6,336 bases of DNA from Candidatus Desantisbacteria bacterium CG1_02_38_46. GTDB taxonomy: Bacteria; Desantisbacteria; UBA1551; UBA1559. The stretch spans positions 1 through 6,336 of the forward strand of contig MNUO01000068.1 in the NCBI GenBank assembly GCA_001871015.1, in the 5' to 3' direction. Made by a program: the position numbers and the translations under genes. The notes beneath the pieces were generated by a model. It was given only the letters and a program-made list of their open reading frames with translations, ran no database searches and was not told where the DNA came from. Below, piece after piece: positions 2,496-6,062 of the stretch. The stretch's first letter is position 1; each line of letters starts with the position of its first letter.

Positions 2496-3551
2496 ATGAA
2501 TACGATTTTAAAAACATTACTTTTTGAATGGGAAGAGAGAGAACTTCCTTCAATAATTGAACGAGAAAAGAACCTTAAAAAATATCTTAATTTGTCCGTT
2601 CCCAAGAATATAAATATTTTTATTACTGGTTCTTCATCGAAAATGTCAAGCAAAGAAATTCCTACCGAATTAAGAGGTAGAAGCCTTGAGGAGAAAATTT
2701 CTCCGCTCTCATTTTCAGAATTTTTGAATTTTGAAAAAATAAACATTGATTTTGAGAAAATTGAATATCTTGAGGACGAGAAAGTAAAAATTCTCTCTGC
2801 CCTCAATGAATATCTTATGTGGGGTGGTCTGCCGGAAATTGTTCTATCAGAAACTGCACAAAAAAGAGAAATTATTCAGGAGTACTACAAAACAGTAATA
2901 AGAAAAGACATATCAGAGAGGTCCGGTATTAAAAATGAAGAAAACTTAAAAGCCTTGCTTTTACTTTTGCTCAATTCTACATCTTATTCAATAAGTAAAT
3001 TATACAATACACTTAAAAGTCTAAATTATAAAATAGGTAAGGCAACTTTGCAGAAATATCTCTCTTCCATAGAAAATTCCTTTTTTCTAAACAATAATTT
3101 TATTTTTTCTTATAAAATAAAAAATTCCCTTCAGTATCCCAGGAAAAATTATTTCATTGATAATGGGTTTGTCAGATCGCTTTCTACTAAATTTTCCAAT
3201 AATTATAGCCGTCTTTACGAAAATCTGGTATTCATAGAATTACAAAGAAGAATAGATTCTGACACCGAAATAAACTATTGGAAAGACGAGTTAAATAAAA
3301 ATGAGGTGGATTTTGTCATAAGAAAAAACACGGAAATTGTCCGATTGATACAAGTTTGCTATGATATTCTTGATTCTGACACAAAAGAAAGAGAAATCAA
3401 GGGCATTATAAAAGCCAGCAAAAAACTTAATTGCAATAACCTGCTGATTATCAATAATGAACTGGAGAAGGAAGAAGTAATAAGCGGCAAATCAGTAAAA
3501 TTTATTCCGCTTTGGAAATGGCTCGTTCAGGATAAATTGCAAGAAGTTTAA
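2496..3551 (+). CDS. AAA_14/DUF4143-type ATPase-like protein lacking the Walker A/B segment
   Basis: This belongs to the widespread archaeal/bacterial AAA_14 plus DUF4143 proteins, whose cellular role is poorly understood. Visible parts, in order: a family-like N-terminus (EWEERELPSIIER, 11-23), then without a nucleotide-binding segment the sensor-1-like strand IFITGSSSKMSSKEI (41-55), LRGRSL (59-64), SFSEFL (72-77), and MWGGLPEIV (108-116). A probable winged helix follows (about 160-200), then a DUF4143 nuclease-like end with EVDFVIR (270-276) and LIQVCYD (284-290). Normal members place a P-loop GxxxxGKT and a DEIQ-type Walker B between the N-terminal helix and the TGSSSK strand. Here only about 10 residues separate those parts and neither motif exists anywhere in the 351 residues. 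The reading frame is otherwise intact, so an in-frame deletion of the nucleotide site, near codons 35-39, is the simplest reading. ATP hydrolysis should be lost. The gene is visibly more AT-rich than its neighbours, follows a tRNA gene and has no Shine-Dalgarno, which hints at an accessory origin. It could be a decaying gene or a reduced DNA-binding derivative. Confidence 0.8.
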   Translation: MNTILKTLLFEWEERELPSIIEREKNLKKYLNLSVPKNINIFITGSSSKMSSKEIPTELRGRSLEEKISPLSFSEFLNFEKINIDFEKIEYLEDEKVKILSALNEYLMWGGLPEIVLSETAQKREIIQEYYKTVIRKDISERSGIKNEENLKALLLLLLNSTSYSISKLYNTLKSLNYKIGKATLQKYLSSIENSFFLNNNFIFSYKIKNSLQYPRKNYFIDNGFVRSLSTKFSNNYSRLYENLVFIELQRRIDSDTEINYWKDELNKNEVDFVIRKNTEIVRLIQVCYDILDSDTKEREIKGIIKASKKLNCNNLLIINNELEKEEVISGKSVKFIPLWKWLVQDKLQEV

Positions 3552-3606: not shown

Positions 3607-4677
3607 ATGATTAATTTAGATGATGCTAATTCAATTAAAAAGTTAGATCCTTCTGACATGCTTGGGTTGGTAGAGGGCTTACCAGAACAATTTGAAGAGG
3701 GCAGGAAAATAGTTTCGAATTTTGATATTTACCCTGCCTGTATCGGCAATATTAAACCTGATAAAATTGTAGTTACGGGATTGGGTGGTTCAGCAATTGG
3801 CGGGGATTTGCTCAGGACTTATCTTCTTGGCGATTTGAACATTCCTGTGGTGGTTAACAGACATTATAATCTTCCAGCATTTGTTGGGAAAAACACGTTG
3901 CTTCTTGCAGTAAGTTATTCAGGAAATACTGAAGAGACGCTCTCTGCTTACAAAGATGGAAAATCAAAGGGTGCAAAAATAGTGGGGTTGACATCCGGTG
4001 GAAAGATGAATGAGTTGTGCAAGGCAGATGGTGTGTCGGTTCTGATTATTCCCGGAGGACTTCCTCCAAGGGCAAGCACAGGATTACAATTTTCAGGAAT
4101 AGTCGGAATACTGGAAAAATTAGGACTAATAAAAGACAGGTCAGGCGAGTTTAAGGAGATGGTCGAAGTGCTTAAATCGATTCGCAGTGAACTGAACAGG
4201 CAGGTTCCACTTGATAAAAATCCAGCAAAGAAAATGGCAGTGCAGTTACAAGGCAAAATTCCCGTGATTTATGCAAGCCAGGACCTCACAGATGTAGTTG
4301 CACTTCGCTGGAAAGATCAGTTTAACGAAAACAGTAAATCATTTGGTATCTTTAATGTTTTTCCTGAGCTGAATCATAATGAGATTGTTGGGTGGGAAAA
4401 ACCTGCTGAAATTCTCAAGAATTTTGTTGTGATATACATAAGAGATAAGGGCGAAAATCCTCAGGTGAAAAAGAGATTTGAGATAACAGAAGGTTTAATA
4501 AAGGACATTGCGTTTTCTGTAGAGCATGTGTGGTCAAAAGGTGAGTCTTTTCTGGCGCGGATTTTCTCAGCGATATACATTGGTGATTTTGTAAGCGTAT
4601 ATCTTGCTTTATTAAATGGGGTGGACCCTACACCTGTAAAGAGAATTGAGGAATTAAAGAAGCAGTTAGTTGGATGA
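3607..4677 (+). CDS. Bifunctional phosphoglucose/phosphomannose isomerase (archaeal type)
   Basis: This cytoplasmic sugar isomerase interconverts glucose 6-phosphate, or mannose 6-phosphate, with fructose 6-phosphate, so it serves glycolysis or gluconeogenesis and the supply of mannose for glycans. Its 356 residues contain two SIS folds. Family marks are VVTGLGGSAIGGD (55-67), AVSYSGNTEET (101-111, phosphate-binding SIS motif), the PRAS turn (154-157) whose arginine matches the active-site arginine of the family, FNENSK (239-244, with Glu241) and ELNHNEIVGWE (254-264, with His257). The Glu-to-His spacing of 16 matches the catalytic pair known from the archaeal enzyme. Longer classical PGI enzymes lack this pattern. 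The start has a strong site, GGGAGGGG, just before the ATG. The gene ends immediately before ispE, so it probably heads the pgi/pmi-ispE-spoVG-tRNA-tig run. The 55-nt upstream gap must hold the promoter if it is not transcribed from further upstream; I see no convincing -35/-10 pair there. Confidence 0.93.
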   Translation: MINLDDANSIKKLDPSDMLGLVEGLPEQFEEGRKIVSNFDIYPACIGNIKPDKIVVTGLGGSAIGGDLLRTYLLGDLNIPVVVNRHYNLPAFVGKNTLLLAVSYSGNTEETLSAYKDGKSKGAKIVGLTSGGKMNELCKADGVSVLIIPGGLPPRASTGLQFSGIVGILEKLGLIKDRSGEFKEMVEVLKSIRSELNRQVPLDKNPAKKMAVQLQGKIPVIYASQDLTDVVALRWKDQFNENSKSFGIFNVFPELNHNEIVGWEKPAEILKNFVVIYIRDKGENPQVKKRFEITEGLIKDIAFSVEHVWSKGESFLARIFSAIYIGDFVSVYLALLNGVDPTPVKRIEELKKQLVG

Positions 4678-4689
4678 TTGGTGAGAAAG

Positions 4690-5748
4690 ATGGCACAGAT
4701 AAAATTGGAGGCACCGGCTAAAATAAATCTGGTACTGGAAGTACTCGGGAAGAGAGAAGACTGTTACCATGAAATCCGCACTATCTTCCAGTCTATTTCG
4801 CTTTGCGATATGATAACCTTACGGGAGATAAAAAATGGCGTAAAACTTCACTTATGCAAGGCTCCAACCACTATTTGCAGAGTAAACTCTGCCACTACAA
4901 GCAGAATAAACTCTGCCACTACAAGCAGAATAAACTCTGCCACTACAAGCAGAATAAACTCTGCCACTACAAGCAGAGTAAACTCTGCCACTACAAGCAG
5001 AATAAACTCTGCCACTACAAGCAGAATAAACTCTGCCACTACAACATACATTAAACCTTCAGAAAATCTTGCTTATAAAGCAGCGTTGTTATTTCTGAAA
5101 TCATCCGGGATAAAAAAAGGAGTTGAGGTATACCTTGAGAAAAATATCCCTGTAGGTTCAGGACTTGGCGGAGGCTCCAGCAATGCAGCAAGTGTCCTGT
5201 TAGGACTGAATAAACTGTGGAAGGTTGGTTTCACAAGGGATAATTTAAAGATGATGGCTTTAAAAATTGGAATGGATGTGCCCTTTTTCATTGATGGTGG
5301 AATGGCATATGCTACTGGACGGGGCGAAAGAGTTCGCAAGGTTTCACCACATCCTTCATTCTGGGTACTATTAATTGATCCTGGATTCCCCATTTCTACA
5401 AAGTGGGCTTATGATAACATTGATAATAGTTTATTATTGACAAAAAATCATTCTTATGCTAAAATTATGTTAAATGCCATCAAAAAAAGAAGTATAAAAA
5501 AAATTGCAGGTTTTTTATTTAATAGATTTGAGGAATTAATAAATAAAGAATATCCCAATTTCTTAGAAAACACAAAATGTAAATTGGCAGACGCCGGAGC
5601 CATCGGAACTTTGATGACAGGAAGCGGTCCGGTGGTATTTGGAATTGTTGAAGGAAGGAGGGATGCTTATCGAGGATTGGAGAGGATTAGAAGTACAACG
5701 AAGGAGAAGGTTTATCTTGCTAAAACAATAGGAGGAAGCTGGAGGTAG
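4690..5748 (+). CDS. ispE: 4-diphosphocytidyl-2-C-methyl-D-erythritol kinase IspE with an in-frame repeat insertion
   Basis: This GHMP-family kinase phosphorylates the 2-hydroxyl of CDP-methylerythritol, the fourth step of the MEP route to isoprenoid precursors. Numbered from the ATG at 4690 it has 352 residues. APAKINL carries Lys11, YHEIRTIFQSISL (26-38) follows, the ATP-binding glycine loop is PVGSGLGGGSSNAAS (154-168), and GMDVPFF holds the catalytic Asp196. The C-terminus has LMTGSGPVVFGIV. Residues about 64-118 are seven copies of SATTSRIN or SATTSRVN, placed in the loop before the helix SENLAYKAALL (124-134). Without these 56 residues the length is about 296, normal for IspE, and no catalytic motif is interrupted. 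ATG 4690 is preferred because GGTGAG lies 4 nt upstream and the N-terminus then aligns with the family; TTG 4678 or GTG 4681 are in-frame alternatives. It follows the isomerase gene almost directly, and its stop codon overlaps the spoVG ribosome site. Confidence 0.94.
   Translation: MAQIKLEAPAKINLVLEVLGKREDCYHEIRTIFQSISLCDMITLREIKNGVKLHLCKAPTTICRVNSATTSRINSATTSRINSATTSRINSATTSRVNSATTSRINSATTSRINSATTTYIKPSENLAYKAALLFLKSSGIKKGVEVYLEKNIPVGSGLGGGSSNAASVLLGLNKLWKVGFTRDNLKMMALKIGMDVPFFIDGGMAYATGRGERVRKVSPHPSFWVLLIDPGFPISTKWAYDNIDNSLLLTKNHSYAKIMLNAIKKRSIKKIAGFLFNRFEELINKEYPNFLENTKCKLADAGAIGTLMTGSGPVVFGIVEGRRDAYRGLERIRSTTKEKVYLAKTIGGSWR
4877..5044 (+). repeat. Seven tandem 24-bp REP-like palindromic units inside ispE
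   Basis: Seven contiguous units start at 4877, 4901, 4925, 4949, 4973, 4997 and 5021. Each is the 16-nt near-palindrome GCAGARTAAACTCTGC followed by the 8-nt tail CACTACAA. Copies are identical except at the sixth base, which is G in units 1 and 5 and A in the others. The G form gives a 6-bp stem with a TAAA loop. On the bottom strand each unit reads TTGTAGTG and then the hairpin GCAGAG-TTTA-TTCTGC, so GTAG stands two bases before the hairpin, as in REP sequences used by RAYT transposases. Because 24 is a multiple of three, copy-number changes keep ispE in frame and alter only the length of the SATTSRIN linker. The tandem array is seen directly; the REP relationship is inferred from architecture. 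Confidence 0.93.
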
Positions 5749-5750
5749 AT

Positions 5751-6062
5751 ATGGAGATTACTGAGGTGCGTATTTTTTTGCGGGATAACACAGGTAAACC
5801 CGAGGATAAGTTAAAAGCTTTTGCGACTGTTACTTTTGACAATTCCTTTGTGGTGCGGGGTTTGAGAGTGGTAAGTGGAGACAGGGGGTTGTTTGTTGCT
5901 ATGCCATCGCGCAAGTTGCCGGATGGGACGAGGAGAGACGTAGCGCATCCTATCAATTCAGAGATGAGGCAAAATCTCGAAAAGAAAATAATTGAGGCGT
6001 ACAATGAGAAATTAAAGGAGGGGCCATCTCCTAAAGATAAATCTGCCGCTGAGGGAGTATAG
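5751..6062 (+). CDS. spoVG: SpoVG family regulator (putative septation protein)
   Basis: SpoVG proteins are small nucleic-acid-binding regulators found in spore formers and in many non-sporulating bacteria, affecting septation, surface structures or virulence depending on species. This one has 103 residues. It begins MEITEVRIFL, has the core FATVTFDNSFVVRGLRVV (24-41), GLFVAMPSRK (46-55) and DVAHPIN (63-69), then a charged helix and a low-complexity lysine-rich tail (about 88-103). The ATG is 2 nt after the ispE stop, with GGAGGT at 5741-5746 overlapping that stop codon, so the genes are certainly close enough for coupling. ispE upstream of spoVG is also known from Bacillus, with two genes between them there. 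Its presence does not imply that this organism sporulates. Confidence 0.94.
   Translation: MEITEVRIFLRDNTGKPEDKLKAFATVTFDNSFVVRGLRVVSGDRGLFVAMPSRKLPDGTRRDVAHPINSEMRQNLEKKIIEAYNEKLKEGPSPKDKSAAEGV

Follow-up and report, generated by a model that had tools for sequence, protein, structure and literature searches.

An in-frame array of GTAG-type REP sequences within the ispE gene of a Candidatus Desantisbacteria bacterium

How does a gene for an otherwise ordinary IspE come to hold seven head-to-tail copies of a palindromic repeat in its reading frame, and does the enzyme carry them as protein? The window (the whole stretch of DNA analysed here, 6,336 nucleotides) is one whole contig of a 1.73-Mb draft genome of 133 contigs, estimated to be 88% complete. 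Its ispE coding sequence (4690..5748, plus strand; alternative TTG/GTG starts are possible at 4678/4681) predicts a protein of 352 residues that includes a 56-residue repeat-encoded insert and is otherwise a full-length IspE. The array-bearing ORF matched TIGR00154, the NCBIfam ispE model, at 223.5 bits against a cut-off of 138.7, and the glycine-rich loop is unbroken, as are the DVPF and N-terminal AKIN motifs, in line with the claim of a first-pass annotation of this DNA that the remainder of the enzyme is intact. A phosphoglucose/phosphomannose isomerase-like (SIS) gene lies upstream (3607..4677, plus strand; named by reading, without a family search) and a spoVG-like gene downstream (5751..6062, plus strand; also named by reading). 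Elsewhere in the window, an ORF at 2496-3551 that adjoins a tRNA-Ser gene has, judged by eye, the look of a DUF4143-type ATPase minus its N-terminal P-loop part.

Tandem Repeats Finder reported one array in the window, at 4877-5044, with a period of 24, 7.0 copies, 97% matches and zero indels. It lies in frame within the ORF at 4678 (or 4690)-5748 and encodes (C/S)R(V/I)NSATT seven times on the plus strand, which accounts for the 56-residue insert described earlier. All units share one orientation: to a 22-bp REP, headed by GTAG on the minus strand, each adds two bases. The units had been called exact copies; seven are indeed present and in frame, but they come in two forms. Unit 1 (4877..4900) and unit 5 (4973..4996) are of the GAGT form, reading GCAGAGT with a perfect 7-bp stem and a Val codon. 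Units 2-4 (4901..4972) and 6-7 (4997..5044) are of the GAAT form, reading GCAGAAT, in which one stem pair is broken and Val becomes Ile. Two units therefore have the sequence GCAGAGTAAACTCTGC and five have GCAGAATAAACTCTGC, with CACTACAA after each. Within the sampled 540 kb described below, the GAAT variant is restricted to the ispE array; this, together with the order of forms along the array (V I I I V I I), points to tandem duplication at the site itself as the probable way in which the array grew. As 24 is a multiple of three, the frame would be kept through any such change in copy number. Directly before unit 1, CCACTATTT (4868..4876, plus strand) resembles the REP end CCACTACAA and may be a degenerate remnant or a preferred target. 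An origin of the 24-bp period in slippage between an upstream CCACTA and the CCACTA of the REP was also considered and was dropped, since the internal linkers are CAA, not TTT.

A near-identical repeat in a 133-contig draft invites the suspicion that the array, or its copy number, is a mis-assembly of a dispersed repeat, and at 168 bp the array is about as long as one short read, so that short reads cannot fix the number of units. Against this, the internal variants are ordered, the frame is open throughout and contamination of the draft genome is low (0.58%). In-frame REPs in 18 other genes, with frame-keeping spacing, are also unlike a product of mis-assembly, and we regard this explanation as extremely unlikely.

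Comparison with other IspE proteins shows the insert to be an addition. Among 22 aligned sequences, the array site appears as a clean 59-column gap in 21 orthologues and is filled in the window protein only. The insert follows the last N-terminal strand and precedes both the helix starting NLAYKAA and the glycine-rich loop; alignment and model agree in placing it where it had first been put. AlphaFold returned a confident IspE core, with pLDDT below 50 at residues 59-77, 88-96 and 103-118, which make up most of the insert; helices drawn in the modelled repeat region are unreliable. A Foldseek search with this model retrieved IspE crystal structures at target-normalised TM values of up to 0.88. 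The insert is thus modelled as a low-confidence loop on a normal IspE fold. Small and polar, the peptide (SATTSRIN)n is probably disordered, which would leave the kinase fold and active site undisturbed.

The repeat unit is not peculiar to ispE. On the strand opposite the gene its anatomy is GTAG-TG-GCAGAGT-TT-ACTCTGC, that is, GTAGTG followed by a hairpin with a TT loop. Allowing up to 2 mismatches, the genome holds 277 matches to the 16-nt core, versus 0 and 1 for the reversed pattern. Hundreds of copies therefore lie elsewhere in the genome, and the suggestion that the element is a dispersed one holds. We took a census in 540 kb of stretches from contigs holding the core motif, a sample in which density is biased upwards and no bias of frame or position is expected. 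GTAG(T/C)GG-headed hairpins numbered 177 in these 540 kb and 0 in shuffled sequence. Dozens of stem sequences retain pairing, among them GCAGAG/CTCTGC, GTCGAG/CTCGAC, GCAGACC/GGTCTGC and GTGCGA/TCGCAC. Some REPs stand alone, some form inverted pairs (e.g., stretch L074, 7269-7428), and others are strung head to tail in arrays whose period is mostly 24 to 30 bp. By a rough gene caller, 137 of 212 REP sites are intergenic. The density of REP clusters in coding DNA is ~23 times below that outside genes, in agreement with the purging of most insertions into genes.

GTAG REPs have been defined as high-copy palindromes of 20-40 bp with an unpaired GTAG at the end of a 6-13 bp stem and a short loop; they form subfamilies with compensatory stems, are mostly intergenic and occur as singles, dimers and groups (PMC3733652). 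The present element agrees with them in size and copy number (22 bp, 277), in its GTAG end and 7-bp stem, in its two-base TY-type loop, in compensatory stems and in intergenic bias. It further shares with GTAG-1 and GTAG-2 an unpaired dinucleotide between GTAG and stem. By its GTAG head and the anatomy of its sequence, the element is assigned to the GTAG REP superfamily, for which that study gives 24 consensus families (PMC3733652). Di Nocera, De Gregorio and Rocco reported intragenic GTAG REPs in 2013; REP clusters that encode 43-82 residues are likewise on record, and so are two species in which one gene carries different REPs at roughly the same site (PMC3733652). Common to those REPs and ours are a mostly intergenic location, some in-frame intragenic copies, and clusters with captured flanking bases that code for tens of residues. 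Ours differ in their host lineage and in that we found no REP-flanked RAYT. Novel in the present case are the host lineage (an order that includes Candidatus Desantisbacteria), the burden carried by core genes, a coding array built head to tail, and the use of spacing to test for translation.

In-frame REPs occur within at least 19 recognisable genes of the 540-kb sample. These are topA, dprA, leuC, an UshA/SoxB-like gene, a TIGR03960 radical SAM gene, a Ca2+-type P-ATPase gene, asd, thiL, tsaB, thrC, an nrdG2-type activase gene, a CCA tRNA nucleotidyltransferase gene, trmD, trpE, trpG, a NuoL/M-like gene, mfd, ispG and ispE itself, the CCA, NuoL/M-like and UshA-like names resting on scores below family cut-offs. 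Alignment to solved relatives placed extra or unmatched residues at the REP position in TrmD, Asd and IspG, and TsaB spanned 292 residues over a 212-position model. Some REPs supply protein ends, such as the final residues of a Dxr-like protein. This protein (L048, 989-2158) ends within a REP (..CSGRVNSA stop). REPs are then found in three enzymes of one pathway, IspE and IspG being the other two, a coincidence that is probably due to chance, given the REP load.

Gene prediction was itself affected by the repeats. REP codons score badly in a codon-usage gene caller, which consequently began ispE downstream of the array; over two arrays it also preferred antisense ORFs, and all of these predictions were set aside. 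A test on 60-codon flanks was underpowered, and a fourth-order Markov version performed better. The twelve clusters that the latter placed in another frame proved, by eye from their translations, to be junctions of neighbouring genes. None of these twelve was recognised as a case of a REP breaking a gene by frame shift, though badly broken genes could evade the method.

If the intragenic copies are translated, their frames and spacing should matter, and both are far from random. Stop codons occur in two of the six frames of the REP consensus, and none of the 45 intragenic copies uses those frames. Of the 45, 39 use one of the two polar frames (SGRVYSA in forward, SRVNSATT in reverse orientation), 4 use QSKLCHY and 2 VVAEFTL. 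As copies in one array are not independent, these counts overstate independence; counted per locus, the polar pair accounts for 14/18 (p 0.03), a weaker bias than that per copy. Spacing between same-orientation neighbours is divisible by three in 14/14 cases inside genes versus 15/40 outside (Fisher p 2.5e-5), and if the former are grouped into about six arrays, the probability of this becomes 0.0014. Since each of the 14 spacings inside genes is divisible by three and stop-bearing frames go unused, it is very probable that intragenic REPs are translated and that selection has filtered them. These statistics are indirect but strong evidence for translated inserts under selection, and the repeated tryptic peptide INSATTSR would let environmental proteomes test translation.

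The same numbers bear on the idea that the repeats are transcribed and then lost to the protein, either by programmed ribosomal bypassing or by excision from RNA or protein. Mitochondrial byp elements and inteins are models for skipped or excised inserts. Such elements use hairpins, and the array RNA does fold far more strongly than shuffled sequences (z -7.65), as is expected of any hairpin array. An insert that is skipped, however, may contain stops and be of any length, yet none of the 45 intragenic copies uses a stop-bearing frame and 14/14 spacings keep the frame; moreover, no splicing domain is encoded. We consider bypass or excision hardly credible.

Palindromic DNA in frame within genes is known from Rickettsia, whose RPEs in protein-coding genes are about 150 bp long, the short ones of R. 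conorii being CGTC-type (PMC10969869, PMC3733652). Shared with RPEs is the presence of palindromic selfish DNA in frame in many unrelated, often core, genes (here 19 in 540 kb). In contrast, the unit here is of 22-24 bp, GTAG-type and tandem, which sets it apart from the RPEs described in PMC3733652 and PMC10969869. The likeness to Rickettsia in-frame palindromes, with REP-like tandem architecture, that was drawn in the first-pass annotation therefore extends to the in-frame location and stops short of the sequence class: the ispE element works like an RPE, yet is not an RPE. With REPIN/RAYT systems the genome shares inverted REP pairs and RAYT-like Y1 transposases. It differs in that the RAYT-like genes are not beside these REPs and the ispE array has a single orientation. 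One RAYT-like gene scored 79.9 bits against NF047646 (cut-off 80) and a second carries a stop. In the searched sequence of this 88% complete genome, we found no RAYT gene flanked by these REPs. A RAYT-like transposase (L010, 1462-2445) is fused to a DnaA-type helix-turn-helix domain and bounded by AGGGTCAGA and TCTGACCCT.

Taken together, the array is very likely a head-to-tail expansion of a mobile GTAG-type REP in a surface loop of ispE, translated within the enzyme. This agrees with the main earlier reading of a dispersed REP-like element translated in frame, the unit being dispersed and the insert missing from 21 orthologues. One REP, a short non-autonomous mobile palindrome, would have inserted into the loop before the first helix. 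Its mobilisation by a RAYT-type transposase is inferred, since no such gene with these REPs beside it turned up. Slippage or unequal recombination would then have multiplied the 24-bp unit, made up of 22 bp of REP and two bases. Selection would remove gene-breaking insertions and leave a tolerated fraction, and no benefit to the cell is required.

The element had also been proposed to be tolerated or put to use, and only the first half of this finds support here. That the array has been recruited, its polar loop or mRNA hairpins giving IspE or its expression a useful property, might be read from the retention of several copies in a single-copy pathway gene, from the preference for polar frames across genes and from the strong mRNA hairpins. 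The same peptides, however, occur in many unrelated proteins at unrelated loops, the insert is predicted to have no stable structure, and tolerance accounts equally well for the frame bias. Recruitment thus seems quite improbable to us, and a tolerated, translated REP array remains our reading of ispE.

The closest genome, Candidatus Desantisbacteria bacterium CG1_02_49_89, belongs to another family of the same order. Its IspE is 50% identical to that of the window and has no array, and the order SIS gene, ispE, spoVG-like gene is common to both. The exact REP was absent from this genome and 96 others, and was not found in the viral contigs searched. CG1_02_49_89 carries its own set of GTAG hairpins (33 in 239 kb, with 0-2 in Markov controls); GTAGTGGCAGAGCTTGCTCTGC is among them, and some are in-frame parts of GltX and HycI. 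Repeat-derived segments of different sequence occupy the same loop of LeuC in CG1_02_49_89 (L124, 8556-9971) and in the window genome (L043, 12636-14000). Given the relative's hairpins in frame in GltX and HycI and its repeat-derived LeuC segment, translated REPs are, as far as sequence can tell, a trait of both sampled families of the order and not of one gene. Translated REPs are accordingly not confined to Rickettsia and a few REP-rich isolates, and weigh heavily on core enzymes in an uncultivated deep lineage, where they add floppy loops to otherwise normal proteins. A broader proposal, which we hold to be rather doubtful, is that GTAG REPs are a continuing source of protein segments in this order: different REP families would colonise the same permissive loops in different families (as in LeuC), polar frames would be retained, and some arrays (as in ispE) would expand in frame and may acquire a role.

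Other repeats were seen alongside these REPs. A composite REP with an extra segment, ACTTCCAGAGTGCCTACTTT(T/C)GG, between the hairpin and the GTAG head, before CCACTAC, recurs in many copies, at sites that include L046 5232, L047 5165, L057 2446, L058 7526, L061 5338, L067 2530 and L068 9077. A predicted protein at L059 9969-11534 carries a triple N-terminal repeat, NKQSLFLAKEMSIKCQ, which is in frame and not REP-type. Finally, a second recurrent palindrome, TCAGG(A/G)CTAAAG(T/C)CCTGA, has about 39 plus 16 copies in L042-L081 (the 540-kb sample) and is also present in the Desantisbacteria relative.
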